Source: Marisa cornuarietis
Lineage: Eukaryota; Mollusca; Gastropoda; Architaenioglossa; Ampullariidae
Direction of reading: 5' to 3'
NCBI GenBank assembly: GCA_004794655.1
Contig: SMMW01000521.1
Span: 5,996,501-6,060,500, forward strand
DNA: 64,000 nt
Shown: piece by piece, positions 14,385-55,710 of the stretch
Numbering within the stretch: position 1 is the stretch's first letter
Layout: every line of letters begins with the position of its first letter
Position numbers and translations under genes: made by a program
Notes under the pieces: model-generated
Seen by the model: only the letters and a program-made list of their open reading frames with translations
What the model was told of the DNA's origin: nothing
Database searches by the model: none

Positions 14385-17300
14385 TCACTCGCCACTACGT
14401 TTGACCTGACAACAAGAGAACACAAGACACAATTAATGAGCAAATCACATGCAACATGATAACACAGGACTACGGTGAAATCAGTAAGATGCAATGGTAA
14501 ATAAGGTGTAACAGGACTACATGGGTAAAAAAAGTGATAAGGGAGTTCACAGCACTCAACGAAAATAAACATGAGGCACGAGACAGAAAGAATGATTTTT
14601 TATTATGAGAAAAACAATGGAATGATGGCTGTAATAACCGCTATTCCGTGTCTCTCATAATCACACATCCTTAATTTCCATAGTACAGCATCACAGAATC
14701 CAATAGGAGTGCTCACCCAGCGCTTGACACAAACACAAGCACCAGGTGAATGTGTCGGACATGATGAAGGGGAAAGCTAGACAACAGTGAGGATGAAGGA
14801 CAAAGGACAGAGAAGATACAGAATGAACAGTAACAACGATGAGTTAGCTAAAATGTAATGAACAATGTTATCAGCATCACCTACAAATTAGGATAAATAT
14901 CAGAAAGTGAGAGAGAACGATTGAGGATTAACAGCAGTCAGTAGAAACTGTTTAGGAGAAGTGTTAACGGAAAAGATGTTTTTAATTCAGGTTAACGAGA
15001 CCCAATGATGTGTAAGTGGCAGATATACAAGAGAAGGGGATTCTGTTCCTTTGCTGTACCACAGCCAACATCAAGTAACCACACATCACTGTTGTCATGA
15101 CAGCAGCACACAAGATGAGCTAAAGAGGGAAGACACGTTGGAGCTTGGGTGCTGGGTGTTATGAACACATTGCAATAGCGACTGATTGAGTAATGGCTTA
15201 GCAAAAGAAGTTTTAAACAAAGGCAAACACAAACAACAGATAATACTTTTATCTACAAAAGAGATATCTGAATGACAGCACATATCTCTTGACTTCCTCT
15301 TAAAAACTGAGTGATTAAAGAAGCCTGGCTGTCACTCACATACCGCAGAGGTGTATGTACAGTTAAACAGGTGAGACAACAGGGTGACGATTGAAAAGAT
15401 GCGAACAGATAATCAGGTAGATAAGCAGCTAGTCTCCAGACAACTAAGAGGCGATGAAAGAGAGGCAGGCCGGGAAGTTTTTTAATTTTTATAAATAGTG
15501 TGCAATGTTTATGCAGAATTGTAAAAAGATATTAACACTATGTTGATATGGCTAGGTGCTTATGGGACTAGAAGTTTATAAGGCTCTTTACTTGGGTAGA
15601 AGGACTAATGAACAGGAGGACGGAGTGAGATTAGGGAAAAGCCAGTTTGGGGTCACTTAAGGGTAGCATGGGTTTTAGGGATGAGGGGACACGAATATTT
15701 CGGATGCAAAAGTAAGATAATAATTTTATGTGTATATGTTATATGAATACAAACAGAACTAACATAGCATAACATAGACAATTACAAATAAAGAGGAGAA
15801 AGTTGGCCTCACTGTTCTCTGGACTTTAAATCTGCCAGCTGGTCTCTCGCAGACGAAGGGCATTAGGACTGAAGGATCGCATGGAACATCATGCCACTGG
15901 CCGCGTGTATTAAAAAAGGCAGCACAGGATTCTTGTTTGCCGCCATTATTATCTGGTTGTCCGGGCTCCCAGTTAGTGTAGACCAAGGGACTTCCTGTAG
16001 ATGTCAGCACCCAGTGTCCTTCTGACAAAAAGTCGTTGAATCCTATCCACGCGGTTGACACTAATCGAACAAAGTATGATAAGCATGAACAATAACAACA
16101 ATATTAATAACAATAATAAATGTATATTTTATTTCCCTCACCAAGGAGCATGCTTTAAGAACTTAAGAAAAGCAGGAGACAAGGACAGCAATCGATGGAC
16201 GGAAGGAGAAACAACTTTGCAGACAAGTAACAAAAGACAAACACAGAGAACGTAAAGAGAAATCAGGTTACAAACAGTAAAGATGGAGACTGTAAGAAAT
16301 CTGCAGAGGAAGACAAGCAGGCGGACTAGTCATGTGTTTATAATCACAATTATTGACAACTAAGTTGATTGGTGTCAGGAGTAGTGCTTATATACATAAT
16401 CATATATAATATATATATAGCATGTAGATATTGGCAATATTAAACTATTGGAAAAGTTACATTAATCATTTAAAAACACGTATTAATTTTAACAGCACTA
16501 GTAATTACAGTCACTGGAGCTGATGTTCTATTGATGCACAACATTTACAAACCTTGTAAGAACTGCGTTATCGCCAAGCAAATATTAAAGGACATTAAAG
16601 GACAAAGTTACTTACCACCACGTGTCGTCATCAGACTATAAACAAATTTATTCTCCAGGGCCGAGTTAATTTCAACAAGGTGACCACCAAAAGTCTCGCA
16701 AAAACTCTGCGACAATAAACATTTCAACACATGATGTTACTGTAACAGGGTGGGATGAGGTTCGCTCTCTCAGTCTCACCACAATGATAACACAACACCG
16801 TCGTGGGTTGAGTCCGGTTTACTATTGTGTCAGAGGATAGGTCTCACTAGGCGAAAGCTCTAACAACTTGGTGGGGCGATGCGACCACCTCTCTTCTCTC
16901 CGTTCGACTCCCCTCTCTTCTCCCTCTCTCACCCTCTTATCCCCCTCATACCCGACTTTTCTAGAAGCCCTGTCCTTGTTACTAGGCGACCCCCTTCCGC
17001 TCTCCTTCGGCCGGGTCGCCATTCGGCCAGTGGTTTTCCCCAACCCCCTCCCACTCTCTTTCGGTCACAAGGTATGTCACCTACCTTTCTATCCCTGTGT
17101 GTGTGTGTGTGTGTGTGCAATGCGTGTGTGTACCTGTGCTGTGCGTGCCATAACCCATACTACTATACATACTACTTAATGATTATTGAACCCCAGAACA
17201 TACAGGTTTTACTTGAAAGTAAAAGCCAGGTAACAGAGCAGCGGATTTATGAGGTAAGATAAGGAGGGCGAAGTAAGGTAAGACTAACATGTCATGTACC

Positions 17301-19011
17301 TACAGACTGTAGTGAACAGAAAACTCCTTTAGTTTCACAAAGTCCTCTAGATGAACTCTCTCCCTTTCCATATCCGCCACCTTCCTACAACTGAATCCTT
17401 CAAATCTGCACTGAAAACTCACCTCTTCCTTGAGCATTACTCCTAACACAGTCCACACAATGCTCGTCCTTCTTACCCTCCCCCCTTCCGCTCTTGCTAC
17501 TTGTCTCCCCATCTTTCTCTGCAGAATCACTATATTCTCTGTTCCTGTTACTTGCTGTCTTTTGTGTTTTCTATCTTTGTTTTCTGTTTTTCGTCAGTAT
17601 TGTCGATATTGTCATGCGATATACAAATCTTCATTATAAATATCTTCATTATTATTATTATTTTTATTAGTGGAGTTTATCAACATGGTGAGTAACGAGC
17701 TGAATATCACAGTATTGGCTATTCACGAATCTTATTGACTTATCTATCAACACGGCGAGTAATGTTTTATTTTAATTAAATAGTTTAATAATATTGTTGA
17801 CTATTTACAAAAGGTATTTATGAAAGCTTAATGTTATGTCTGGAAATGTAAATGTGTAAGTGTTAACAAACAACTCATTTAATAAAATATTTACTAACAC
17901 AAAGAGACAGATTAGAAGAAAAAAACAGAAAAAAGAACAGAAAAGAAAAAAAACGATAATGTCTTCATTTCAATAGCGTTTGATGGTGTAACACCAGTTA
18001 ATATTCATTCATTCACACGTGTGAACATACGAGTTAAAATTCTTGATTGTAAAATAGCCCCTTAAGAGCGACAGATATTTACACATGGAAACCATGGAGG
18101 TGGTCGGTAGGACAAAACGAGAAAAATATTCTGCAAATAAAAGTGTCATTGAGTGATGAGAGTGGACACAGGTCAGTGCACATCAACTTACTACAGCGAC
18201 TGCCCACGGGAGAGGCTGGTGGATGTAAGTGTAGCAGGATTTCTCGTATGAAGTCCAAAAGCTTGGACACCCACAGTCTGCAGGAAAGTAAACACAGGGC
18301 AGTTCTGACATCGGACTATAAAACTATTTATTTTCTTGAAAACTACTTTTTCTCTTCTTAATATTATGTCAGCAATCAATATAATTTTTAACCGAAAAAT
18401 ACTAAAATGTACTGAAGGCGCATACAGTACTGTACACAGTAAGTGCATCAAGAAATCCCAGAGAACACATTCCCTAGTGTCTTCCAGGTATTGTTAACAT
18501 AACAAATAACAACACTGTTAACATTGGTGTAGCGATGTAAGCGATGTTAAATACAGTTTTATGGAAAGATCTTTGCTGTGGAGTAAAGGGTTTGATAACA
18601 CGACTTGAAAAGATATACTTACAACATGCGGTACAGAGAGACAGGAGAAGTAACAGTGTTGATGAAGACATATACTTACAACATGCGGTACAGAGAGACA
18701 GGAGAAGTAACAGTGTTGATGAAGACATGTACTTACAACATGCGGTACAGAGAGACAGGAGAAGTAACAGTGTTGATGAAGACATATACTTACAACATGC
18801 GGTACAGAGAGACAGGAGAAGTAACAGTGTTGATGAAGACATGTACTTACAACATGCGGTACAGAGAGACAGAAGAAGTAACAGTGTTGATGAAGACATA
18901 TACTTACAACATGCGGTACAGAGAGACGAGAAGTAGCAGTGTTGATGAAGACATGTACATACAACATGCGGTACAGAGAGACAGGAGAAGTAACAGTGTT
19001 GTTGAAGACAT
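14385..19011 (-). CDS. Secreted C-type lectin domain protein, gene A (5 exons, about 164 aa)
   Basis: Model on the minus strand: exon 1 from the array (any of 18963-19011 to 18623-18671), exon 2 18192-18277, exon 3 16616-16706, exon 4 15813-16060, exon 5 14385-14405. All junctions have GT-AG and compatible phases (1, 0, 1, 0). The product starts with a signal peptide (MSSSTLLLLLSLCTAC type). It continues CGCPSFWTSYEKSCYTYI (exon 2), SFCETFGGHLVEINSALENK (exon 3), then the ligand half in exon 4 and VKRSGE in exon 5. Six cysteines fit a long-form CTLD. The role is inferred as a secreted sugar-binding protein, such as an immune or matrix (perlucin-like) lectin. If exon 4 is not spliced, the frame runs to a stop at 15759 with a hydrophobic tail. 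The promoter TATA is at about 19047 and the AATAAA at 14265. Confidence 0.75.
15813..16060 (-). CDS. Gene A exon 4: QPD-type ligand half of the CTLD
   Basis: Reads STAWIGFNDFLSEGHWVL, then GQPDNNGG, then GQWHDVPC and PFVCER. QPD in the EPN/QPD position is, in the CTLD family, the tripeptide usually associated with galactose-type specificity. All other lectin copies in this window where the site is readable have EPN. The usual WND is WHD. The donor ACA|GTGAGG at 15812 is matched by ACA|GTGAGT in gene C and TTA|GTGAGC in gene B at the same place, which supports splicing to exon 5. Confidence 0.85.
16745..17175. other. Copy-A-specific insertion of about 430 bp
   Basis: Absent at the equivalent point of copy B (about 30305), where the flanking sequences are nearly joined. 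It contains a C-rich, then GT-rich stretch with a (GT)n at 17098-17118. No element family was recognised. Confidence 0.5.
17348..17690 (+). mobile_element. 5'-truncated CR1/L2-like retrotransposon 3' end
   Basis: Nearly the same as 52195-52560: the coding end LPFHIRHLPTIESFKSALK, then a 3' UTR with CACAGTCCACACAATGCT, and an A+T-rich tail. Absent from copy B at the equivalent site (about 30480). Further relatives are at 56300-56620 (+) and 58893-59285 (-). Confidence 0.8.
18611..19011 (-). repeat. Tandem array of signal-peptide first exons, gene A (7 units of 57 bp)
   Basis: Each 57-bp unit reads ATG, SSSTLLLLLSLCTAC, a last T, then the donor GTAAGTAC or GTAAGTAT. Only 8 nt separate one exon's end from the next ATG. 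Exon units are 18623-18671, 18680-18728, 18737-18785, 18794-18842, 18851-18899, 18908-18954 and 18963-19011. Unit 6 has lost 2 nt (47 nt, frame broken). Unit 7, nearest the promoter, has T for S at one position and a weaker donor (GTATGT). Unit length is a multiple of three, so units 1-5 form one open frame with a 19-residue period. The exon is homologous to the single first exons of C (MSPRPLLLLFLLCGTC) and D (MFPTALVLLLSLCGLC), all 49 nt with the same phase. Confidence 0.9.
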
Positions 19012-28062: not shown

Positions 28063-31000
28063 TCACTCGTCACTACGTTTGACCTGACAACAAGAGAACA
28101 CAAGACACAATTAATGAGCAAATCACATGCAACATGATAACACAGGACTTCAGTGAAATCAGTAAGATGCAATGGTAAATAAGGTGTAACAGGACTACAT
28201 GGGTAAATAAAGTGTTAAGGGAGTTCACAGCACTCAACGAAAATAAACATGAGGCACGAGACAGAAAGAATGATTTTCAATTATGAGAAAAACAATGGAA
28301 TGATGGCTGTAATAACCGCTATTCTGTGTCTCTCATAATCACACATCCTTAATTTCCATAGTGCAGAATCACAGAATCCAATAGGAGTGCTCACCCAGCG
28401 CTTGACACAACACAAGCACCAGGTGAATGTGTCGGACATGATGAAGGGGAAAGCTAGACAACAGTGAGGATGAAGAACAAAGGACAGAGAAGATACAGAA
28501 TGAACAGTAACAACGATGAGATAGCTAAAATGTAATGAACAATGTTATCAGCATCACCTACAAATTAGGATAAATATCAGAAAGTGAGAGAGAACGATTG
28601 AGGGTTAACAGCAGACAGTAGAAAGTGTTTATGGAAAAGATGTTTTTAATTCATGTTAACGAGACCCAATGATGTGTAAGTGGCAGATATACAAGAGGAG
28701 GGGATTCTGTTCCTTTGCTGTACCACAGCCAACATCCAGTAACCACACATCACTGTTGTCATGACAGCAGCACACAGGATGAGCTAAAGAGGGAAGACAT
28801 GTTGGAGGTTGGGTGTTGGGTGTTATGAACACATTGCAATAGCGACTGATTGAGTAATGGCTTAGCAAAAGCATTTTTAAACACAAACAACAGATAAATT
28901 TTTTATCTAGAAAAAGATATCTGAATGACAGTGCATATCTCTTGATTTTCTCCTTCCTCCTAAAAAACTGAGGTGATGGAAGTGTGACAGTATCCCTGGT
29001 CTCTCAACCAGAACGTGAATGCTGGCCCCAGGGAACGGGCACGTGGGCACGAGTTACTCAACACTAGCCGCCCACGTCAACATGAACTGCAGGGGAAAAC
29101 ACACGATAATCACACGTCGGTCATTCAATTACACTACTTGGCTCACGAGCCCCCACCCCTGCTCTTCCCCGAACACAATACTCAACGACGTGTGAATATA
29201 ACAATAAAGAAAAGATTTATTCATACAAGAGCATTTCAACATAATCAATATAATCGTCTAAAACAGTTTCTAAGTTTTCTCTTTCGTTCAAGAATAGAAT
29301 TATTTTGAATGCGAAAGTAATATGATTATTTTATGTATGTGCTAATCCCGGGTTATATGAACAGAAACAGCACTAACATAGCACAACACAGAACATAACA
29401 AATAAAGAGGAGAAAGTAGGGCTCACTAATGTCTTGGCTTTAACTCTTGCGACTTCAGCCGCTGGTCTTTCGCAAACGAAGGGATGTAGGACTGAAGGAT
29501 TGCATGGTCCATCATGCCACTGGCCGTTTGGACGAAACATGGCGCCACAGGCTTCTTGTTTGCCACCATAATTATTTGGTTCTCCGAGCTCCCAGTTAGT
29601 GTAGACCAAGGGACTTCCTGTAGATGTCAGCACCCAGTGTCCATCTGACAAAATGTCGTTGATTCCTATCCACATGTAAGACTCTAATCGAACAAAGTAT
29701 GATAACATTAACAATAACAACAATAACAATAGCAATAATGATTGTGTGTTTTATTTCCCGAATAATGATGCTCACGAAGGAGCATGCTCTAAGAATGACA
29801 GGTAGGAGACATGGACAGAATACGAAGGACAGAAGGAGAGACAACTATGCAGACAAGTAACAAAAGACAAACATAGAAGACGTAAATAAAATCAGATAAA
29901 AAGTAAAGATGGAGAGTGTAATAAATCTGCAGCCCCCCTCGCCACACACACACACACACGCAGTGTCCCTTCACTTGCTGTGTCTCCCTGGGAAGTGGAG
30001 TGCTGGCCGATGACAGTTAATTGTATTTTCTTCAATCTTCAAGCTATCTAGAAAACCCCGCTGACTCGTTATCTTCACTCTACTGTTACACACAAATGTC
30101 AACAATATAGACCAATATGCACAACTTTTACAAACCTTTTAAGAACTGTGTAATCGCCAAGCAAATATTAAAGGACAAAGTTACTTACCACTTTCTGTGG
30201 TCATCAGATTATGAACAAATTTATTCTCCAGGGCCGAGTTAATTTCAACAAGGTGACCACCAAACGTCTGGCAAAGACTCTGAAACAATAAACATTTCAA
30301 AACAACATGCTCTTAACTAATGATTATAGCACCCCAGAACATACAGGTTTTACTTGAAAGTAAAAGCCAGGAGAACAGAGCAGCAGATTTATGAGGGAAG
30401 ATAAGGAGGGCAAAGGAAGGTAAGACTAACATGTCATGAACCTACAGACTGTAGTGAACAGAAAACTCCTTTAGTTTCCCGAAGCCCTTTTGCCCAGTCT
30501 ATCAACATGGTGAGTGACGATTTAAATATCATAATATTGAGTATTCACCATTTTTATCGGCTTATCTATCAACACGGTGAGTAATGAATTATTATAATTA
30601 AATAGTGTAATATTGTTGACTATTTACAAAGCGCATTTATCAAAAATGTTATGTATGTAAATGCTAATGAGTAAGTCTTAACAAAGAAATGATTAAACAA
30701 ATTGTGTACTAAGCGCAATGCAAAGAGAAAGAAAAGAAGAAAGAAAAGAAAAGAAAATAATGATAATGTCTTTATTTCAGTAGCGTTTGTAAAATAGCTC
30801 CTGAAGAGTGACTGACATAATTATTTAGGCATGAAAACCACGGAGGTAGGACAAAACGAGAAAAATATTCTGCAAATAAAAGTGTCATTGAGTGATGAGA
30901 GTGGACACAGGTCAGTGCACATCAACTTACTACAGCGACTGCCCACGGGAGAGGCTGGGAGATGTAAGTGTAGCAGGATGTCTCGTATGAAGTCCAAAAG

Positions 31001-31810
31001 TTTGGACACCTACAGTCTGCAGGAAAGTAAACACAGGGCAGTTCTGACATCGGACTATAAAACTATTTATTTTCTTGAAAACTACTTTTTTCTCTTCTTA
31101 ATGTTATGTCAGGAATCGATATTATTATTAACCGAAAAACACTAAAATGTACTGAAGGCGCTTACAGTACTGTACACAGTAAGTACATCAAGAAATCACA
31201 GAGAACACATTCCTTAGTGTCTCCCAGGTATTGTTAACATGACAAATAACAACACTGTTAACATTGGTGTAGCGATGTAAGCGATGTTAAATACAGTTTT
31301 ATGGAAAGATCTTTGCTGTGGAGTAAAGAGTTTGATAACACGACTTGTGAAGATATACTTACAACATGCGGTACAGAGAGACAGGAGAAGTAACAGTGTT
31401 GATGAAGACATATACTTACAACATGCGGTACAGAGAGACAGGAGACGTAGCAGTGTTGATGAAGACATGTACTTACAACATGCGGTACAGAGAGACAGGA
31501 GAAGTAACAATGTTGATGAAGACATGTACTTACAACATGCGGTACAGAGAGACAGGAGAAGTAACAGTGTTGATGAAGACATGTACTTACAACATGCGGT
31601 ACAGAGAGACAGGAGAAGTAACAGTGTTGATGAAGACATGTACTTACAACATGCGGTACAGAGAGACAGAAGAAGTAACAGTGTTGATGAAGACATATAC
31701 TTACAACATGCGGTACAGAGAGACAGGAGAAGTAACAGTGTTGATGAAGACATGTACTTACAACATGCGGTACAGAGAGACAGGAGAAGTAACAGTGTTG
31801 ATGAAGACAT
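28063..31810 (-). CDS. Secreted C-type lectin domain protein, gene B (5 exons, about 167 aa)
   Basis: Exons on the minus strand: exon 1 from the array (31762-31810 to 31363-31411), exon 2 30931-31016, exon 3 30189-30279, exon 4 29427-29683, exon 5 28063-28083. Sizes of exons 1-3 (49, 86, 91) and all phases match gene A. The protein has a signal peptide, then CRCPNFWTSYETSCYTYI and SLCQTFGGHLVEINSALENK. The ligand half in exon 4 follows, with VKRSDE at the end. Without the last splice the frame would stop at 29373 after a short hydrophobic tail (SSLFVMFCVVLC). The role is inferred as a secreted Ca2+-dependent lectin. It is the sister of A from the segmental duplication and keeps EPN where A has QPD. 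Confidence 0.75.
28985..29300. other. Copy-B-specific segment in intron 4 of gene B
   Basis: Not homologous to the corresponding part of copy A. A 97-aa plus-strand frame (29015-29308) shows no motif. Possibly an insertion; family unknown. Confidence 0.4.
29427..29683 (-). CDS. Gene B exon 4: EPN-type ligand half of the CTLD
   Basis: Reads SYMWIGINDILSDGHWVL, then GEPNNYGG with QEACGAMF, then NGQWHDGPC and HPFVCER. EPN suggests mannose-type specificity in this family. W-H-D replaces WND, as in A. A donor TTA|GTGAGC follows. Confidence 0.85.
30931..31016 (-). CDS. Gene B exon 2: N-terminal half of the CTLD
   Basis: 86-nt exon between CTTTCCTGCAG and GTAAGTTG. Encodes CRCPNFWTSYETSCYTYI and SQPLPWAVAV. 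It differs from gene A's exon at few positions (G to R, S to N, K to T, H to S). Confidence 0.85.
31351..31810 (-). repeat. Tandem array of signal-peptide first exons, gene B (8 units of 57 bp)
   Basis: Exon units of 49 nt end at 31411, 31468, 31525, 31582, 31639, 31696, 31753 and 31810 (ATG positions), each followed by an 8-nt GTAAGTAC or GTAAGTAT spacer. All eight keep the ATG, frame, phase and GT. Unit 2 puts an arginine into the hydrophobic core (STLLRLLSLC). Unit 3 has a silent change. One continuous minus-strand frame crosses all eight units. Confidence 0.9.
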
Positions 31811-31843
31811 GGTGGTCACTAAGTCTGTCAGCAGTTGTTGGGG

Positions 31844-31852
31844 TTTTTTATA
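31844..31852 (-). promoter_or_regulatory. TATA box, gene B
   Basis: AAGACTATAAAAAA on the minus strand, about 36 nt before the promoter-proximal ATG. Same layout as gene A. Confidence 0.65.
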
Positions 31853-40867: not shown

Positions 40868-41135
40868 AACACACGTCACACAGACTGAAGTACACGTCAC
40901 ACACACTGAAACACACGTCACACAAACTAAAAGTACACGTCACACAGACTGAAGTACACGTCACACACACTGAAACACACGTCACACAGACTGAAGTACA
41001 CGTCACACACACTGAAGTACACGTCACACACACTGAAACACGCGTCACAGACCGAAGTACACGTCACATAGCCTGAAGTACACGTCACACGGCCTGAAGT
41101 ACACGTCACACAGATTGAAGTACACGCCCCACTGT
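40868..41135. repeat. 21-bp tandem repeat, about 12-13 copies
   Basis: Unit ACACGTCACACAGACTGAAGT, with a variant ending CACACTGAAAC. On the minus strand it reads GTGTGACGTGTACTTCAG, recalling the core of minisatellite 2. Looser copies of the ACACGTCAC motif continue to about 41540. Confidence 0.93.
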
Positions 41136-41930
41136 GCGTAACAACCAAACCTGTAGTATTGGGCTGTAATACATGTCACATTGAGGTAAAATATACCCCA
41201 GTCTACTGAAAGGCTCGTCACACTCGGTTAATGTACACGACACCCAATTAAAATAATAATGTATCGCTCAGCAAACCGTACACGTCATCATCGTCTGTTA
41301 TACATCAAAACAACCACAAAACCAAATGAACGCATGGACTAATTTCTCACCCTGGCGGAGCACACAGCAGCCAGTTCAAATGGCGCACGTGACTTTTTCA
41401 CACGTCACACTCGACTGTACTACATGTCACAAGCTACTGAAGTAGGGCACACAGCATACATACACATGACACTTTATCTCTGATGTATGTCACACTCGAC
41501 AAACTACCAACACTCTTCTCGAACGTCACACTCGGCTGATAAACGTTACAATGACCCACATACTGCCTCGCACACACAGACACACACACAAACAAACACA
41601 CAAACACACACAACAGCTGGATCTGTCTCTGTCGCCATAACATAAGGCCTGCAAAGTCTGGGGATTTGCCTGCCATAAATATTTTACCTAAACTCAATCC
41701 TCGCTAGATATTCGATAGGTAGCTTTCTACTTGTCGCAATATCCATGTAGCAAACATCATCTCCACACTTGCTTTACAAACCTTTCGCGTGTGTGCATCG
41801 GAGAGTCAGACAGTCACAGTCTTCTGAGTTGTGGGACCAGATGACTACAAAGCCACGTGACCACCAGAACACGTGTTGTTTGTCTCAAAGCCAGATTACG
41901 AGATTACGAGATGAAAGTTGTAATTATTCT
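41136..41930. other. No gene recognised; scattered CACGTCACAC motifs
   Basis: Degenerate continuation of the 21-bp repeat and a short (CA)n near 41575-41610. No CTLD exon found. Confidence 0.4.
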
Positions 41931-41998
41931 TCATCTTTATCATCACCATTATCATCCATATACCACATAAAAGACAAACAAAATCCATGAAATTATAG

Positions 41999-42004
41999 TT
42001 TATT
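41999..42004 (-). terminator. Orphan CTLD-type poly(A) signal
   Basis: CGCAAAATAAACTATAATTTC on the minus strand matches the poly(A) context of A, B and D. No CTLD exons 2-4 occur between here and gene D's 3' end, so it marks a lost gene copy. Confidence 0.4.
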
Positions 42005-42218
42005 TTGCGAGGGGAATTTTGTTTCAAAGTTTCAGAATGTTCAGATCTTTTCTATCGTTTTTTTCCTCACCTCTACAGGCTCCATTTCCAGCAAAATAGC
42101 GGGTGTTAGAGCGAGTTGTCCGGGTCAACGGTTCAGTGGAATCCTTGCAACTGATAAGCAAACAGTCAGAAATATGGCTAAACTCTTGAAGTTATCACCG
42201 CAGAAAAGTTTCTTTAAT

Positions 42219-43760
42219 ACAGTGATGCCCAACCTCTTTCGGCCTGGGGGCAATATAAATTTCCGACACGCGTGTTATTGGCCGGCTTCACCAAAAAAGT
42301 ACAAAAAGAGAAAAAAATAGAGCAGATACCGTTTTTATTAGTATCTACCCTTTAATTCTGTAGTAATTTGTGGGATGTTTGAATTTGTTTTCCCGAAACA
42401 AACATCTGAATGTCCGGCTGCATCGTAGAGACACCGAGTCGAGCACTGAATCGAAATGTTCGTCCGCCAGGAGATTACCTCAGACGGGTTTCGTCCCTTT
42501 CATCACTGAAAACGTCTGTTGACACACATAAGTACTTGTAAACATCGTGATCATCCTCAACCCTTGTTTTCGGACATGTGGAAAAGTTTCTGCAGGGAAC
42601 ATGGTGTAGAAATCAATTGTCTGCATCGCTAGAAATGTGTCAAGCAGGGATGTCTGGCTTTGCAAGTCACTCAGTTCCAGTTGCAGGTCTGTCGGGGCAC
42701 TTGACACATCTGCCGCAAATGGATTTTCGAAGAGACGTATTTCATTCTTCAAATCACGTAAATCCACAAAACTTTCATTGAAATTATCATTCACGAGCCC
42801 CAGAAGTTGGATCATTCTTGCTTTGGGGAAAGACATTTAGCTGCTGATCGTGACGTAGAGCTGCACACGTTGGGAACTGGACAAGCTGCACCCTTCCCGC
42901 CTGCTGAATGAAGAGTTGCAATTTCGCTTGGAATGATGCTATGTCCGCGTACACATGCGAACTCAACTTGTCTTTCCTTTGTAGTTTGGTGTTGAGTTTA
43001 TTCAGATGTCACGTGATGTCGCATAAAATCGCCAAATCCCACAACCACGAGGGGTCGTTCAGCTGAGACACTTGCTTTGATTTCTCAGTCATAAAAATTT
43101 CAATCTCATGTCAAATCAAAAAACCGTTTTAAAACTTTCCTCGACCTAACCAGCGGACTTCGCTGTGAAGAGAAAGTCTTCATATGCGGATTCTATTTCT
43201 GTCAGAAAGTCCTGGAAAGTTCCGTGGTTCAACGCCTGTGATCTGATGAAGTTTACAGTGCTGACCACAATCTTCATCACATGGTCCAGAATCAATACGT
43301 GTCCACAGAGACTTTGTTGGTCAATAATGCGGTGAAGCCGCAGAGGCTCGGTTCCATTGGACGACGACTTTTCTAAGAACCCTTGCTGCCGCTTAGTTTT
43401 GACTGGAGATATTTCCCCGTGTCTTCCACTCGCCGTGCAATTGCCATGTGAGAATGGCTGACGGCTTCAACTGCATTCTGCTTTTGAGGACACATTTCCT
43501 CCACCACTGCTAGCAACCACTTGTTTACACATTCGCCGTCAGCATTGGCTTAACTTCTCTGCTCAAAATGTGAGCAGCTCGGTAATTGTGACAGGATGAA
43601 TTTTCTCAACATCTTTTCTCTCATCAATGAGTATTCTCGGGTACTTTGATGAAAGTGCTGTAGTCCTATGGGCGAGCGGATAGCCACGAGATTTGAGGAA
43701 CATTACATGAGGCTGGAGGCACGCACACCTGTCTGCTGTATCCCACATTCACGTGCATTC
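42219..43760 (-). pseudogene. hAT-superfamily transposase pseudogene with a terminal inverted repeat
   Basis: The left end CAGTGATGCCCAACCTCTTT (42219) is a classic hAT terminus. The minus-strand frame 42480-42836 ends LFENPFAADVSSAPTDLQLE, then FPHVRKQGLRMITMFTSTYV and QQTFSVMKGTKPV, the dimerisation (C-terminal) region of hAT transposases of the GTF2IRD2/ZBED5-like group. Further upstream, in shifted frames, comes ILCDIT-(stop)-HLNKLNTKLQ, SFQAKLQLFIQQ and LVQFPTC, matching the middle of the same proteins. Stops at several places make it inactive. The right terminus was not found. Confidence 0.8.
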
Positions 43761-45814
43761 ATAGAAAGATCTTTCAGAGTAGCAGACCCTGAAGACCTCA
43801 GAACGTTTCAGTTTCTCTAAGTATTTTAGTGCATTTTTGTGCATTAGTGAGTTTGTGTGAGAGAGTGTGCATGCGTGTGTGACCGGTATGCGCGGTGGGA
43901 ATTATGTTCTTGTGTATGTTTTGTTGAGTGCGTGCAAGAACGTACGTTGAAATGAGTGTGAGGTGGGACCAGGAGATGAAGTCCTCAGGTTGTAAGATAC
44001 TGAGGTTCTTAGTTGGTACCTGCTAACAAGTCTAAGTCGTCTGCAAAGCATACTGGTTGCAAACTGGAAATGGAAATGTAGTGGTCGTGGAGAGCTTCCC
44101 CGCATGATCTTTCTCAAGATGTTTAACCAACGAGCATTAGGGGGCGCTACTGAGGTGCCCCGACTGCAGTGGGAAAATAACTTTCTATTCGGTCATCGAG
44201 CAGGACTGAGCTCATTGAGTTGTTATACAGCGCTGATGACTTGGACAAGGCCTTCGTTGATGCTGACATTTAGTAACATATGCAGTAGCCCTTTGACCTT
44301 TATTGTATGACTGTATTTGAAAAAGAGGAAGCTCACTAACAGACTTGACGGTTCCGTGTCAGTAGCAGAAAATCCTGGACCAAGACTGCAAGTGATTTAT
44401 TTGATGAATTTTATTCTAAGGAATATGGTGCTGGTGCCACAGAGGGGTGACATGGAAGTTAACAGTCAGTGCAGCGCGGGTGGGCGAGTCGCACCTGGCC
44501 TGACTAACAGGTGTTTTTATGATAGTGGAAAGAGAAAGGGGAAGACAATATAATTATCTGTTGCCGGCCAGCGCTTGACTTCTCAGAGAGACACGGCAAG
44601 TGCAGACACACTGTGTGTAGGGGGGAGGGGTGAAGGCTGTCTTCCTAGAAAGGTGCTTCGTTCTATTTTTCAGTATTTTGGGTGTTTTTGTATTAGGAGA
44701 ATTTTTCCTGTATGTTTTTAAAGAAAGATATAGATATGCAGTAGTAATTTTGTTTTGTTGTAATTTTTTAGCTGTGAGGTATTCATACCCTGGAGAATTT
44801 GGTCAGGAGTGTTGGGCGGCTCGTCCCTAGAGGCGGCGCCATTTGTTCAACGTCTGGCCTCTAGAGGCAGCGTTTGTGGTTTGAGGTTGGGTGACTCGTC
44901 CTGAGAGACAGCACCATTGTAAGTAACACGTTTGGTCCCGAGAGACAGCTTTTATGGTTTGGGTATTCGTGTGTGGAGTATATATGTAGTTATTTTTATG
45001 CACACTCCTTGAAACGTCAGTTTTCCAGTGACTGCAAATTAAGAACATTATCCAGTGTGAACATCAAAAAGTGACTTTGTGCCGGAGTATAAACTTTACT
45101 AGTATTCTTTGTTAATAATTCAAATTGAGACAACAAACTTTCTTTTAGACTATTTGATAATTAGATTATTTTGTACCTTAGAATTTCTTGAAATTATTTT
45201 ACCATGTTTACTGATTTTATTAAATGTGTACAGACTTGAACAGGAGGCAGAGTTGTTTTTGTATGAGGAAAAAAAGATCGCGCAAATGTCCAGGCGTTAG
45301 GTGAAGACAGAGGCTGTGACAACTGGTCTGACAGAGAAGCTGAGCTGGGTGAATGGTGACTAAATGTTGAAAGGTTGACATATTGGATGCCTAGTGTAAG
45401 TGTCAAGTAATCAGAGTCAGTTTGGTGTGTAAAGTAAGAAGTGTATGGGCGTCAAATTGTTCATATAGTGAAGATATTCTCGCTTTTCTATTAAATAAAT
45501 GCCTGTCTGAAAGATTTTCTCTGTACGTGTATATGCCCCTGTGATCATATGACCACACAGTCACGTGATATCAAGTACAAGTCTCACTTGTCTCATAGCG
45601 AGATGTATAAGATACATGCTGTGATACTCATGACTGTGGCTCTACATGCTGTGGATGACAGGTTTTGCTATCTCTTCTCAAAGAACTCAGTCTAGTGCTA
45701 ATAATTTATATGAATTTGTTTTAAGGAAAATAAAAATAGCGTTTTAGTTTATTAAAGAGTTTGTGTGTATCTTGTGTGTAATGTTTGTACCTGATTTTTG
45801 CTCAGTGCAGTCTT
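43761..45814. other. No gene recognised; diverged short repeats near 44.8-44.95 kb
   Basis: Three loosely related copies of GTCC.GAGAGACAGC / TCTAGAGGCAGC-type text lie at about 44825, 44865 and 44935. Open frames are short and without motifs. Confidence 0.4.
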
Positions 45815-45990
45815 TCTTGTACCCACCCTTCCCAGCCACAGCTGGCTTTCGAATGTCAAAGACTGGACTGGTCGTCCTGTACAGGACCTGCTGACTATCG
45901 CCCACAATAGACAAGAGTGGCGGCCCCTGTCAGCTGCCGCGTCTATCCATGTGATCCCCCCAACCACAGGTGCCGGTCATAGGACTGACT
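45815..45990 (+). mobile_element. C-terminal end of an RTE-like retrotransposon
   Basis: Reads NVKDWTGRPVQDLLTIAHNR then QEWRPLSAAASIH, the usual C-terminus of the same family as the fragments at 6.8 and 36.6 kb. A (GACT)n tract (about 45985-46004) follows directly, as expected at the element's 3' end. Confidence 0.7.
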
Positions 45991-46417
45991 GACTGACTGA
46001 CTGACAGACATACCATATGCACACACTAGTCTATCGTTATGTCATAAAATATGTTCTGCATGCTGCCTGTAGCCGAGAGCAACGACTTACCCTCGCTTTA
46101 TAACTAGGGCAGATTAGTGGACTTTGCTATCGAGCTATCGTCTGCTGAGGATCACCACAAGGAGTAGATTCTGCAAGCGGCCAGAGACACTGAAGGAAAG
46201 GACAGTCATCACTGCGCGCGCGTAGTGGAACAGCGCTGAATCAACTCGCGTCCAGCTGTATACAAGCTGAACTTATCGACAGACAGCTTCCGGTCTCTTT
46301 GTTTTGTACCCGCGAGCATAATATAGAATCCTTGGATATTGAAGAAATCTTCTTAGAAAGTATGCTTATATATATATATATATTAAATAAATGAATCCTA
46401 ATGTAAAATATCTTTGC

Positions 46418-46678
46418 TCAAACAGAGCGTTGTATCGTAGTATATGTATTTATTTCGTAGTTGCCAGGTGACTTATCTTCAATGTAACATTCCGGTTTGA
46501 AATGTCTGGAGCAAATAGTCACTCTTTCAATGTTAAAACTAGAATTACGATTCACAGCTCTCACAAGAGCTTTTTCCCAGTCTTGATTGTCTACTCTTCG
46601 TATGCGGAAGAATGATAAACCTTTGAGTCGACTTTTGCATGAAGGGCAGCCTGGAATCGCACATCTAGTGCCTGGCAT
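46418..46678 (-). CDS. THAP-type zinc-finger domain protein, N-terminal exon or fragment (86 aa)
   Basis: Starting at the ATG at 46678 the frame reads MPGTRCAIPGCPSC, FFRIRR, WEKALVRAVNR, VTICSRHFKPECYI. This is the THAP domain pattern (C..C near the start, W, then C.HF) known from DNA-binding proteins and from P-element transposases. It lacks the usual AVPT(L/I)F box after the ECY, and ends in EINTYTTIQRSV. Upstream on the same strand, CTCTACCTTG-like or TATA signals are not evident. It may be one exon of a THAP gene or a transposon relic. Confidence 0.65.
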   Translation of the reverse strand: MPGTRCAIPGCPSCKSRLKGLSFFRIRRVDNQDWEKALVRAVNRNSSFNIERVTICSRHFKPECYIEDKSPGNYEINTYTTIQRSV

Positions 46679-47089
46679 CTCAAAAGAACTACAACAAGGA
46701 GCTCTGTGACACACTGTGTAAAGTGAAACCGGAAAAAATGAGGCAATAACTTATTTGGTGGTAAGATTCAGTGGGATAGTATTAGGTCTTAGCTCAAGAT
46801 GGTACTTGAAGCAGAGAGTTTTCTCTTGTTGAACCCACCTAAAGACAAATGTTTCTATTTTTTTCTCCCCAGGCCTCTTGTTGTTGTTGTTCTTCGTCAT
46901 CTTCTGTTTAGTATTCCGCTTCGTCATAATCTTTTCTACTGTTGTGTGAGTGTAATCAGGTGGATATTTTCATTCGTCCACCCCCACGTTCATTTCATCC
47001 TTCATCTTCGTTGTCCTGTCCTACATCGCCAGTCATATATGCAAAATACATGTACCAACACAGAAGTTGTAACTCGAAGTTGTACTGAA

Positions 47090-47135
47090 GACAAAATACA
47101 AGATACAAGATACAATACAAGATACAAGACAACTT
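47090..47135. repeat. (ATACAAG)-type short tandem repeat
   Basis: CAAAATACAAGATACAAGATACAATACAAG and similar; a few copies only. Confidence 0.7.
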
Positions 47136-47309
47136 TATTTATCGCCAAAGGGCAATTCCAGTAAGAGCACCAGACGTCGCACAACCAAGAGTGGCCATCT
47201 GAAGTAACACTAATCAAACAGGTTTCGCAAAGTTAGACTTGGTGACACCTGCGGACTTTATTGTCGCACACAGAGTAAGGAGATGGGGCTTTGAACCACC
47301 TTGGTGCCC

Positions 47310-47390
47310 CAGTTCAGTACCCGGGTGGCGCAGTGGACTTACCTAGGATTGCAGACGTGTAGACTAAGCTCGACAGAGGGTTGAAGAAAG
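47310..47390 (+). other. Possible tRNA-derived SINE head
   Basis: CCCGGGTGGCGCAGTGGAC fits a pol III A box (TGGCGCAGTGG). About 30 nt on, AAGCTCGACAG is only a weak match to a B box. No cloverleaf could be drawn convincingly. Confidence 0.2.
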
Positions 47391-47494
47391 TATAGTAGTG
47401 AGAGGAATGGTAAATAAGCTTTCTGATTTTCCTATCATTTTCACACAGCACAAGAAACAGATGAAAGTTAACAAGTAGCTAGGATGAGCAGCTG

Positions 47495-47500
47495 TTTATT
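47495..47500 (-). terminator. Poly(A) signal AATAAA, gene D
   Basis: AGCAAAATAAACAGCTG on the minus strand. The proposed exon 5 starts at 47621 after AAACTAG, and a short coding continuation (SET-stop) is possible if exon 4 is spliced at 49568. Confidence 0.6.
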
Positions 47501-48589
47501 TTGCTACCAAAATATATTTGCTGTCTCGAAGCATTTTTCGCGATTTTCCTTTTCATGAGCCATGTTTGCCATGTCTGCCTCGGACGCGAATGCACATCGT
47601 CCGTGACGTGATTAGGTCTCACTAGTTTAAAAAAAACATTTGGCACAATGGGGTTACAAATAAGTTAAATGGGAGTAAACAAAGATAATAAATACAAAAA
47701 AATATTTTAATAATCACGGGAAAAGGATTTTTAAAAAGTGTCTGAGATAGCCAAGGTGAGGCAGACTTACCTTCATTGTATTTCTTAAAAATATGTTTCT
47801 CTGAATTACAGCAGGAAAAGTTAATACGCGAGAGCAAGAGAACACAACTCTGCAGACAACTGTGTAAGTCGTCACCGCAAAGTGTCCATCGTGTTTTGTA
47901 TGTCAGTGCTAGTATCAACGTAAAACTCAACGTTTTTTCTGCTTAGATTCCTAATAAACAAACTTTTGGAAAATGGGATTCATTTTTTATTACAGGATTT
48001 GTTGTTTTATAAATCTAACGGATAAGAAAGATAACGATATCACAGACCTGTGTACCTACATATCTTAATTGACGATATAAGTGGTCTTAACAGTTCTTCT
48101 TTGCTGAATCTCCGATACCATCATATTTCTCCTAAGTCCAGAGATATTTTTTTTAATTTGACTCATCATTTTGATTTCACCTAATGTGCTAACATTTTAT
48201 CACTTGTGAACGATTACAGAAGGAAAGAAAGAAAGAAAGAAAGAAAGACCCTTACATTTCCTCTACATACATATCTACGTACATACACACTATACAAGTA
48301 CACAGACTGTCTCTCTTTCTCGGCATCTCTTATTTCATCAATCCTTTTCTTTCACATGAACAGACATTGACTAGACATTACCCAATATTTACTGCCTAAA
48401 GTGACTAGACATTACCCACACATTACCGTCCCCATAGATAGCAAAACACATGTGAGCAGGCACACATGGATGCTTGAAAGCCCACGTCAACTTTACATGA
48501 CTCAAGGGGACTCATTCAACTATTATCGTTCTTTACAAGAGCTACAATGGATGTGAGGAAGGCTATTGTTTCAGCAAAGAAAATATTTC

Positions 48590-48965
48590 TCAACCGGAAG
48601 TTGTGGCCCGGACGTGTCTATACCTGAGCCCAGAGGGCATGACACAGAACAGGCCATTAACCGGGTGGGATGCACCTCGCACAGACTGCGCTGGGCGTAG
48701 CTCGTGCCCACAGAGGGAGTGCCAGCTCTACACACTTCCCGGTCGAGCAGACTTTGTTTGTTTGTTTCGTATTGTTTGTTTTTTGTGTGTGGTACTGCCG
48801 TACAAGATAATGACAGAGAATGTCATTACACTCTTATCCCCGCCGGAAAAACTGGACCAGAATGTTCCGTCTATGCCAAATTTCTTCAGCTGGCGTAGAA
48901 AGTAAAGGCGTTGTTGCCCCTTCTGGACAGTCGACACTACATTGATTTCCTAGCTGAGATCATTT
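48590..48965 (-). mobile_element. L2/Rex1-like reverse transcriptase C-terminal fragment
   Basis: Minus strand reads STVQKGQQRLYFLRQLKKFG and VMTFSVIILYGS. A frame change follows, then SHPVNGLFCVMPSGLRYRHV. These are the final segments of a non-LTR retrotransposon protein family common in fish and molluscs. Shifted frames and stops make it dead. It sits in the presumed intron 4 of gene D. Confidence 0.65.
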
Positions 48966-49560
48966 GAGATTGTGAATGGCCTCCCCGTTGATAATGACAG
49001 ACTCAACAGGACCTCTTTTTCTGCGGAAGTCATAATACTTTAAAGTCGAAGTCATGTGACTTCTAGTAAAGAAATCTGACTGGAGCTAACAGGTCACCCC
49101 TTTCCTTCTCACAGCTACACAGGTAGGTGAGCAAATTTGTGAGTCAGCAGGGTGAGTAATAATGAGGTTGTTTGGCAGATAATCATACAGACCCATTCTC
49201 CAGGTGTCTAGATGGGGATGAAGGAGAGATAAGTAAAGAAGTGATGAAACTATTTTATGTTTGCAAATTTTATGAAGAATGCCAAGACAAACTGACATTG
49301 TAGAAGAGGCTTTTTACTGCCACCACACGCTAAGAAAGATGTTTGACTAAATGGTTCATAAGTTTATCGAAATAAATGAAAGCTATTCACAGATAAACGT
49401 GCAGCTATTTACATTTTAAGTAGATGGAAGCATATTGCAAAACTTGATGAAAAATAAAGATTTATTTATTTTTATCGGGATACAAACAGGCCCAACATAA
49501 TAAATTATTCATAATAAAATGTAACAAAGACTGTAAGACTTTTGTGAGACAAGAAGAAGA

Positions 49561-52500
49561 CTAGTACCTGCAAACGGCTTGTCTCTCGCAAACGAATGGA
49601 AACAGACCTGAAGAATCGCATAGAACGTCATTCCAATGGCCGCTTGAACTAGACAGTAGAATGCAGGCTTCCTGTCTGCCTGCAGAATTATTCGGTTCTC
49701 TAGCGGACCAGTTATTGTAGACCAAAGGTCTTCCTGTAGATGTCAGCACCCAATGTCCATCTTGCAAAATATCGTTGGCTCCAATCCACACATCCGCTGC
49801 TATTGAACCGAAAGAGTTAATGTTTATTAGAAGTTAAACGGAATTTTTAATTCATAGGTGAGAGTGTAATTAATCCATTTTAATTTATATTTTAATAAAC
49901 AAATACCTATTTATTCCGTTACTCACACCTCATTCAGACCTCATTCATGAACTAAACTCAGTGCAGAACTCTGCTGCAGGTCTGGGGCCAGTTGCACAAC
50001 ACATTTCTAATTTTAAACATTTTTAGGCCTTAACTCTATTTAGATAATCAGTTTAAAGTGCACAACACAATTTTATAATTTTTAAAACTAAAACTGCTTT
50101 AAGTAAGATAAAGTTGTTTAAGTCTGACTTTCCGTTCTGTCAGTACAATGTTTTGTATGTTTTTCTGCAATGCATCAAAATGGCTAAGAAGAGATTTTTC
50201 CTCTTTAGAACAGTTTTAAGGTTTAGAAACATGTTGTGCAACTGGTCCCTGGAGCTTAGAGCTTAGGAGTGACGCTGGAGGCCATGTGTAAGGAGAGTGT
50301 AAGAAGGGGATGGAGCACAACCTTTCTTACTGTTGATTTTAGAATGGAAAGTGCTTCCAGCTGGAGAGGGGAGGGAATGTGGGGATTGGGCAGAAGATGG
50401 ACGAAGGGTGGTGGGGATGGAGAATGTGCGGGAGGAGGGTCTTCTGTGGTACCACACGCATTGTATACTCTTGTCGGTGCCCTCTTTTCCTGTGCAACAC
50501 AACCATTTGCCGTCCGATATTTTATACATCTCCCCCACAAACAGGCCTCTTTATTGTTTATATTTATTATACACACTACTCTGTGTGGCCCGAGCACTGA
50601 TAGGTCAAAAAGCAGGTAGGGGCTAAGAGTGAGTAGAGGGAAAACAGGGACAGGTCCGGGGTGTGTGGTTATTATGGGGTGCGAAGAGTAGAATTCACCA
50701 CATACATAGTTCCATTAGGAAAACAATTAATCAAATACACAAAGATACATGACTAATAAGAGAAATTGCAGAAAAGGCTAATTGTTAAATAGAGAAGAGG
50801 GAAACAAGAGAGAATATAGGTAGAGGAACACAACTCGGTAAAAGCTTGGTTTCTTCAAGTTAGTGAACTTTGACACAAGGGGCCAGTCAGCGACAACGGA
50901 TGGTCGGGGCTGTCAGCCGTCATCGTGAAACTTCAAGGACTACGAGACCGGTATTTACGAATATTTTGAAAGATAGAAATTTGACGCAGAGGTGGCGTTA
51001 GGGGGGGTGGCAACTGCGGCAATCGCTCCAGGCCCCGCGCCTGAGGAGGGGCCCGCGGCCCCGCGATAGGAGATTCTTGTGGTACGGTATATACAATATC
51101 TAGCCACACGGGGGTCCCGCATATGACAATGGAATAGGAACCCGCACGACCCCACGTACTGCTAAGACTGCCAGGAGGGGTCGCCGATCTCCGATTGTGT
51201 TGATTGGCCGTCGCTCCAAATCACCGAAGTCGGGCGGATCACGTGGCATCAGCCTGGTGTTTGTTCGGCAGACTTACGTGTTCTTCAAGGCGAGTACCAG
51301 TTGTATAACCAGTTGTGTCGGTGTACGAGCAGTTGTTAAAGCCACGCAATATCTATGGACTTGGAAGGAGATCAAAGATCAAAGACCGACTGAGTTTCAC
51401 TCTGCTACTAGCATCATAGAAACCTGTAGTAGAGTTGTCAAGGATGCCAAACGTAAACTCAACGATGATAAAACGGAAACCCTCCTATACTCTAGAAGAA
51501 GAAATCAATCATTGGTATGTCCGCCAAATCACACCAGGGTGGGCGGAACAAACATCACGTTTGTGTCATCCGTCAGGAATCTGGGATTCATTGTCACTGC
51601 AGATATGACTCGACATAAACATGTTACACCTGTCTGTCAGCCTGTCTATTATGATAAACATGTTACAGCTGTCTGTCAGTCTGTCTATTATGATAAACAT
51701 GTTACAGCTGTCTGTCAGTCTGTCTATTATGATAAACATGTTACACCTGTCTCTCAGTCTGTCTATTATGATAGACATGTAGCATCTGTCTGTCAGTCTG
51801 CCTATTATGAGCTCCGTAAGATCAGCGCCATCCGTCATTTTCTCTCTACACGCGCTACCAACACTCTTGTCTGTGTGTTTGTTCTTTCTCGACTTGACTA
51901 CTGCAACTCCTTGCTGGCAGGCTGCTCCTCATCCCTCATTCAGAGACTCCAGAGAGTACAGAACTTCGCTGCACGTCTGGTGCTTAGAGCCACGAAACGG
52001 GACCATGTCACTCCTCTCCTTCATTTTCTACACTAGCTACCCGTCTGTTCTGGCATTCAGTACAAACTGTCTGTGCTGTGTTTTAATTTCTTTGCAGGCT
52101 CCTGTCCTGATTATTTCTCACAACTTCTCATCCCTTACATCCCGGCCAGACAACTTCGCTTTTCGTCTGATGACCGTATCCTAACTGTTCTCTGGAACTC
52201 TCTCCCTTTCCATATCCGCCACCTTCCTACAATTGAATCCTTCAAATCTGCACTGAAAACTCACCTCTTCCTTGAGCATTACTCCTAACACAGTCCACAC
52301 AATGCTAGCCCTTCTTACACTTCCCCTTTTTTTCGCCTTTTGCTACTTTTGTACTCGCCTTTCTCTGCAGAATAACGATATACTTAGTCCTTGTTATTTG
52401 GTTCCTCTTTGCGTTTTCTATATTTGTATTCTTTTTGTCAGCACTGCTGTTGTTTACTCCTAAATCCGTTGTATGCTGTCCATGTTGTCCATGTGTCATT

Positions 52501-54684: not shown

Positions 54685-54722
54685 GGTTCTCGATGTGTGG
54701 ACCTGTAGATGTACTGTGGCCA

Positions 54723-54728
54723 TTTATA
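54723..54728 (-). promoter_or_regulatory. TATA box, gene D
   Basis: GTAGACTATAAATGGCC on the minus strand, 39 nt before the ATG at 54684. Confidence 0.65.
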
Positions 54729-54864
54729 GTCTACCCCATGAACAAAGCAAGACTTGACCTTCTATTGCAAGCGGTTTGCAATCTATTCTCGTACAGCAAA
54801 ACATTCTGATCTGAAATCCCTTATAAATATTGTCCCAGGGATCATCTGTTACTAATCATACTAG

Positions 54865-55380
54865 TGTAGCGGGAGCGCTAGGCAGCTTGTACCGCTGACA
54901 TTGCTTCGTTCCCTCCACCTCCTTCTATCGCCATGCTTGGTCACGCGCGCGGAGCTTCGCAAGGTAGACAGACAACATAGCGAGTGACATTGTACCCAAA
55001 TATTTCAGTCAAAATAGCAGGAAACAGTCGGTTCTTGCACCTGTTACCGAAAGGCGACTGGTCCTGCTCGGAAAAGCAGCAAAAGCGGCTCACATCACTC
55101 AACCCCCACTCAACCCCCTTTTTCCCCACCCCAGGGAGTTAGGTCCTAGGTTTTAGTAAGATAGGTAGGTTATAGAGAATAGAAATAGCATTTGTTTGTG
55201 TAAATAATGTAAAATAAATCTATGTCTTTGAATTTATTTACCTGTGTGAGAGTCTTAGTCCTCACGAATGTTAGCGTGATGTACGTGTGTCCTCGTCGTG
55301 TGAATGAGATGAACGGGTGTCACTAGAGCGAAAGGAATTGTGTCCTCCGTTAATTGTCACATAGCAGAATACACATGAAG
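54865..55380 (+). mobile_element. LTR-like repeat, copy 2
   Basis: Begins TGTAGCGGGAGCGCTAGGC as at 25036, contains GGGAGTTAGG and AATAAATCTATG, and ends near ATACACATGAAG. It lies just upstream of gene D's promoter (about 140 bp from the TATA). Confidence 0.5.
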
Positions 55381-55710
55381 ATGTTTCTGACAGAAATCCC
55401 CAAGCGTACAGATACCGGCTGCTTTGTGACGAGTATTTACCATCAACACAACTCTCGTTTACATATAAATCTCCCTCCAATGTTCGACCCGAGATTAAAA
55501 TTATTAAAATTGAACGATTATATTCTTTATACTTCCCATTTTAAAACCGCCGGACTTAGTAATATAGCTTTGTTCTGGTGGTTCATTATTATTATTTATT
55601 TATTGTGGATTTTAACACTTTAAAGGCACGTACCTGGTGTTTATAACGGTTTTTCTTTCAGTCCGGCAGAATTAATATGAGGGCTTAAACATTGGTGTTC
55701 AGTTAGGGTT

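Follow-up and report, generated by a model that had tools for sequence, protein, structure and literature searches.

Tandem repetition of a signal-peptide exon and its splice donor in C-type lectin genes of Marisa cornuarietis

RESULTS

Repeated first-exon units precede two lectin genes

The window analyzed here is a stretch of 64,000 nucleotides from a 534-Mb assembly (C389:5996501-6060500), and coordinates given without a contig name are positions within it. On the minus strand, the lectin gene designated A31 begins with eight head-to-tail units of 57 bp, which extend from 31810 to 31355 by direct reading of the sequence and from 31356 to 31811 according to TRF (8.0 copies, 97% matches). Each unit comprises a 49-nt exon (ATG, 15 codons, and T; MSSSTLLLLLSLCTAC) and an 8-nt spacer, an organization proposed in the initial annotation and confirmed here. 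The range given there (31351..31852) does hold the array, but the array proper occupies 31355-31810, the remainder taking in a TATA-like box. Units 1 to 8 lie at 31754..31810, 31697..31753, 31640..31696, 31583..31639, 31526..31582, 31469..31525, 31412..31468, and 31355..31411, respectively, all on the minus strand. The spacer with its donor is GTAAGTAC in units 1, 3, 4, 5, and 6 and GTAAGTAT in units 2, 7, and 8; unit 7 carries one residue change (Leu>Arg), and unit 8 is followed by the non-repeated intron ATCTTCACAAGTCG. A 27-nt core of the unit occurred 15 times in the window (≤3 mismatches), eight times in this array and seven times at 19011-18615, compared to no occurrence in 100 shuffles of the sequence.

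A TATA-like box (TATAAAAAA; 31844..31852, minus strand, by reading) stands 42 nt 5′ of the first ATG (ATG1). It is the single box that had been described ahead of the array, and the 8-nt spacers are too short to hold more; with the transcription start placed from this box, a 5′ untranslated region of about 10 to 18 nt is predicted. The array is a minisatellite in the usual sense of head-to-tail units of some tens of bases (57 bp by 8), and its eight plausible donors facing one acceptor make it a candidate case of alternative 5′ splice sites, for which two plausible donors are enough. It is not a set of alternative first exons, each of which would have its own promoter, nor of mutually exclusive exons, each copy of which would have its own acceptor and donor. 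As previously noted, a spacer of 8 nt is too short for an intron, and the units cannot be spliced to each other. Cassette splicing between units was likewise rejected, the sole nearby AG lying inside GTAAG, where it would yield a 52-nt exon that is not a multiple of three.

Downstream, the predicted A31 exons 2 (30931..31016), 3 (30189..30279), and 4 (29373..29683; the rest of the C-type lectin domain and the stop codon) follow on the minus strand. The exon 2 acceptor at 31016 (CCTGCAG^ACTG) has the phase claimed for it earlier. Spliced with one unit, A31 is predicted to encode a protein of 178 residues. This protein and that of the paralogue A18 belong to the Lectin_C family (PF00059; 75 and 64.9 bits, respectively; cutoff of 22.6), and solved structures include 218 distinct sequences that match the A31 protein. 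Protein searches returned no passing candidate with either the spliced A31 protein (0 of 17) or the array reading frame (0 of 7987 scored) as the query.

The array at 19011-18615, missed in the earlier reading, belongs to A18. It has seven units (18615..19011, minus strand), the first with the donor GTATGTAC and the second lacking 2 nt, and is followed on the same strand by predicted exons 2 (18192..18277), 3 (16616..16706), and 4 (15759..16060, the end of which was computed from the 175-residue A18 protein).

Arrays are found at five lectin loci

When the whole genome was searched with a 29-nt unit core (≤2 mismatches), at least 37 matches were obtained, all of which fall within five lectin loci or on a single haplotig contig, and the reversed pattern used as a control gave none; such counts are lower bounds for repeats. 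The arrays contain eight units in A31, seven in A18, nine in C404 (C404:55266-54755), five in G6127, and three in G6083, with lengths of 165 to 512 bp, and the TATA-like box is equally distant from ATG1 in all five. Unit number thus varies from 3 to 9 among paralogues. It was equal (5 and 5) in the one haplotig pair, formed by G6127 and contig C395, which are 99.97% identical over the 3,856 bp compared. In all, 24 matches resembling exon 4 were found in the surrounding 178 kb of C389 together with 80 kb of C404, and a genome-wide search with lectin exons gave at least 115 matches (150 of 234 candidates scored).

Exon 3 of G6127 (C389:6126296) is broken by a stop codon and a length change; despite this, all five of its units are in frame and retain GTAAGTAC/T donors. 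The end of contig C389 (C389:6139888-6154622) is a 14.7-kb, 99.81% copy of 6037391-6052121 (window positions 40891-55621), which may have arisen by recent duplication or represent a haplotype that was not purged. Haplotypes may therefore be mixed in this region, and there may be fewer than five independent loci. A lone lectin exon 4 was observed upstream of the array of G6127 (C389:6128678-6128388), with no exon 2 or 3 match adjoining it, and a long tandem repeat starts about 0.5 kb beyond.

Single-copy first exons in related genes

The closest relatives found that also carry exon 2, G5904 and G5921, align to A31 DNA through exon 2 (200 bp at 89.5% and 239 bp at 90.8%, respectively). Each has one 49-nt first exon (MSTTSLLLLLFLCGSC, by reading) with the donor GTGAGTAT and a TATA-like box ahead. 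Among 14 exon 2 places in the cluster, seven showed a convincing 49-nt first exon, corresponding to six distinct genes since the places at 6050824 and 6153325 are near-identical copies and were counted as one; none of the 14 had an array within the 2.5 kb scanned upstream. Of four further plus-strand genes, three likewise carry a single 49-nt first exon, detected by script in G5840 and by eye in G5904 and G5921; no such exon was found at the fourth, C514, or at the C546 locus. The intron 3′ of the array resembles, by eye, the start of the single-copy intron of G6050. Given that both the nearest exon 2-bearing relatives and other cluster genes have a single 49-nt exon, sequence comparison indicates that the array is the derived state, and one unit with a similarly short leader is probably enough for such genes.

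As a route to the first duplication, exact microhomology (TCTTCA) between the starts of exon and intron was considered and rejected, as it predicts a period of 55 nt and the observed period is 57 nt; the two sites share just a loose AT(GT)CTTCA resemblance. In a neighboring lectin gene on the minus strand, a 49-nt first-exon candidate (40521-40473) is preceded by a TATA-like box, and a second candidate, shortened to 37 nt (40179-40143) and with a decayed box, TATGAA, lies nearer to exon 2. Intron 1 of another lectin gene harbors a minisatellite (roughly 0.8 to 2.1 kb ahead of exon 2 at C389:6107102) with about 30 copies of a 44-bp unit, which contains GTATGA and is not a multiple of three in length.

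The reading frame is preserved in some arrays and broken in others

Each donor was joined to exon 2 and the product read from each ATG. All ATG/donor pairs were in frame in A31 (36/36), G6083 (6/6), and G6127 (15/15, into exon 2 only since its exon 3 is broken), compared to 16/28 in A18 and 16/45 in C404. From ATG1 only, the in-frame donors numbered 8/8, 3/3, 5/5, 1/7, and 0/9, respectively. The claim that the joint to exon 2 never changes phase therefore holds for any donor in A31 but fails in A18 and C404. In A18, the donor of unit 1 is changed and unit 2 is frame-broken; in C404, unit 1 is frame-broken, and the lectin exons are open. An identical unit with the 2-nt deletion occupies position 2 in A18 and position 1 in C404, and the lesion is therefore common to both by descent or exchange. 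The last unit is of normal length and carries GTAAGTAT at all five loci.

A damaged frame or a changed donor is seen in unit 1 at three of five loci and in 2 of the 27 remaining units (P = 0.018), a post hoc comparison of small size that counts one lesion common by descent and may also be affected if array ends escape homogenization. This concentration of damage argues against unit 1 as the sole working unit, a reading that would predict the opposite. Conversely, the state of A18 and C404 is not what would be expected if reading of the entire array were required. From ATG1, no one rule of donor choice leaves all four open genes in frame, which favors mixed or redundant use, unless C404 is dead; it could be a young pseudogene, and the best case for use of a later unit would then be lost. 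The suggestion that the array is a tuned device fared poorly against these data, given a broken frame in two of four open paralogues, copy numbers of 3 to 9, and nearest relatives with a single copy.

Synonymous change types in the units were in excess, without significance (5 of 9 versus 29% expected; P = 0.11; 28 of 32 units, the four with length changes being left out). Coding constraint was accordingly not inferred from this excess; however, a P value of 0.11 leaves room for a weak one.

Donors are near-equal, with exceptions at unit 1, and start codons are not

Predicted pairing with U1 is similar for the two common spacers (GTAAGTAC, −6.8 kcal; GTAAGTAT, −7.3 kcal) and the donors of six single-copy relatives (−6.9 to −7.4 kcal). 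The first donors of A18 (−3.0 kcal) and G6083 (−1.9 kcal) pair worse. Under a matrix of human splice sites, however, these GTATGT donors score 3.78 bits, compared to 3.97 in two single-copy relatives, which weakens the argument from poor first donors; those of A18 and G6083 may still work.

ATG1 has A at −3 at all five loci, and later ATGs have T at this position in 27 of 27 cases, making ATG1 the only start with a purine at −3. The statement that each unit has its own ATG is correct for A31, but the likely strength of the later ATGs had been overstated. The array repeat is moderately hydrophobic (mean Kyte-Doolittle value of 1.27 in any 19-residue window).

Possible exchange of sequence between paralogues near the array

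Units differ almost as much within loci (pi of 0.026) as between them (0.030; 28 of 32 units). Set against the divergence of about 4.7% in intron 1 between loci, this similarity suggests that units may have been homogenized or exchanged. A conflict in history was detected at C404: compared to the other loci, 33 to 39 of 101 to 103 sites differ in the 110 bp before ATG1, for the most part past the TATA-like box, versus 9 to 18 of 422 to 424 sites downstream of the array (Fisher P of 8.6 × 10−16 or smaller in four of four comparisons). The other six locus pairs showed no strong conflict (P = 0.036 to 0.8). The C404 pattern fits an exchange near the array, with a break near the TATA-like box that is not demonstrably within the array.

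DISCUSSION

We propose that the arrays consist of redundant leader-plus-donor cassettes that were multiplied and shuffled by exchange and are only loosely constrained in copy number, an account that we consider, by a small measure, probable. According to this proposal, a 49-nt signal-peptide exon together with the first 8 nt of its intron would have been tandemly duplicated in the ancestor of the five lectin paralogues, and the array would then have grown, shrunk, and been swapped between them. With a cassette of 57 nt, a multiple of three, any donor in an intact gene would give an in-frame lectin. Transcription would start at the one TATA-like box, and exon 2 would be joined to any of the near-equal donors, probably in mixed use. 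Translation would begin mostly at ATG1, the sole ATG in a good context, and the same lectin would be secreted, carrying no additional 19-residue repeat or one or several of them. The array would withstand damage to individual units and would be free to vary in copy number. The sequence shows the anatomy, the copy numbers, the derived state, the frames, and the damaged units; mixed donor use, redundancy, and near-neutrality are inferred from these, and the retention of more than one unit at all five loci counts against loose constraint.

Several other readings overlap with this one and with each other, and the weights that we give them are not meant to add up to certainty. One is that only the first, cap-proximal donor is used and that units 2 to n are freely drifting intron. 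Single-copy relatives with a similar TATA-to-ATG distance are consistent with it, as are the tolerated frameshifts in units 2 and beyond, the ability of A18 to stay in frame from ATG1 with donor 1 alone (1/7), and the near-normal matrix score of GTATGT first donors (3.78 versus 3.97 bits). We nevertheless regard it as somewhat unlikely, since changes fall most often on unit 1, the first donors of A18 and G6083 pair far worse with U1 than do other array donors and those of the six relatives (−3.0 and −1.9 versus −6.8 to −7.4 kcal), and C404 has open lectin exons yet a unit 1 that is out of frame. At the opposite extreme, the last, intron-proximal donor would be the main one and the entire array the normal leader. 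Among equal donors, the intron-proximal one tends to be preferred; this choice also gives the shortest intron, and the last unit, of normal length with GTAAGTAT, is intact at five of five loci. However, this intactness may reflect descent only, and from ATG1 no in-frame lectin would result in A18 or C404, making a last-donor rule rather improbable.

In a further reading, which follows the initial annotation, copy number together with the choice of donor would tune the length of the leader, the start codon used, or secretion. The multiple-of-three unit and the 36/36 in-frame pairs of A31 agree with such tuning, as does the short predicted 5′ untranslated region (about 10 to 18 nt), given that the available text of one report describes leaky initiation from a Kozak AUG for leaders of <32 nt (PMC2518114). 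Against it stand the T at −3 of all 27 internal ATGs, the frame lost in A18 and C404, and the only moderate hydrophobicity of the repeat (1.27); we judge tuning quite unlikely, and regulated leader length as such is possible but unsupported. A variant, a heritable leader rheostat, would have several of the eight donors in use, giving one to eight signal peptides and several starts in a mix set by copy number, with redundancy allowing C404-like paralogues to survive the loss of unit 1; we find this unlikely as well, if slightly less so. It is harder still to credit that the array mainly offers a place for crossovers by which paralogues trade promoters and leaders, an idea compatible with redundant cassettes. 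Differing histories on the two sides in C404 (four of four comparisons) and unit types common to several loci point toward it, but the break lies near the TATA-like box rather than demonstrably inside the array, and the other six pairs give P values of only 0.036 to 0.8. Finally, an assembly artefact seems very improbable. Although the 99.8% copy at the end of C389 means that haplotypes may mix nearby, the five loci have distinct units and flanks, the G6127 locus recurs with five units on a second contig, and arrays of 165 to 512 bp are short.

Structures already known include coding minisatellites, competing donors, and duplicated first exons. Alternative first exons have separate promoters and one shared exon 2. 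The arrays likewise set several start-plus-signal exons ahead of one exon 2 but have one promoter and one transcript. As with alternative or tandem 5′ splice sites, donors compete for one acceptor; here, however, three to nine near-identical donors are separated from one another by a whole coding exon. Mutually exclusive exons are also tandem duplicates, but units 2 to n lack a usable acceptor. The closest family found is that of the Rlec lectins of the oriental river prawn, a multigene C-type family with one to nine tandem copies, proposed to arise by slippage, and variation mainly in a late exon; in the available text of that report, the repeat is 30/33 bp long, lies within exon 2, and is described without a start codon, signal peptide, or donor (PMC7536079). 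The human DDX3Y/MSY2 minisatellite is also a repeat at the 5′ end of a gene that enters the transcript and leader splicing, but its unit of about 100 nt is non-coding and supplies the transcription start, with no ATG, signal, or donor per unit in the available text (PMC3039753). A repeated start-plus-signal-plus-donor unit had no precedent among the literature matches listed, which covered few subscription papers.

The array thus looks like a derived, unstable duplication that gives spare leader parts, not a proven control device. Even so, related genes form a natural series of 1, 3, 5, 7, 8, and 9 copies of a first exon with its donor, which makes the choice of the spliceosome among near-identical donors and the role of tandem signal peptides testable, and each rule of donor use predicts sharply what should be found at the broken units of A18 and C404. 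A repeat made of an exon and its donor need not ruin its gene as it spreads, since an intact unit leaves the phase unchanged.

At the predicted sugar site in exon 4, the triplet is EPN in A31, QPD in A18, and QPN in G6083 and C404, which we take to be the sugar-site motif in these lectins. Replacement changes in exon 4 significantly exceeded silent changes in two of six pairs, A18-C404 (32 replacement versus 1 silent; P = 0.003) and G6083-C404 (P = 0.008), but not in A18-G6083 (P = 0.079) or the three A31 pairs; P values are uncorrected, and the pairs are not independent. From sequence, these changes and the variety of motifs suggest diversifying recognition behind a constant leader, which does not by itself make the array important. 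A hydrophobic C-terminal tail is encoded at 29373-29450 in A31 (SSLFVMFCVVLC) and is present in A18 and G6083 as well; C404 stops earlier.
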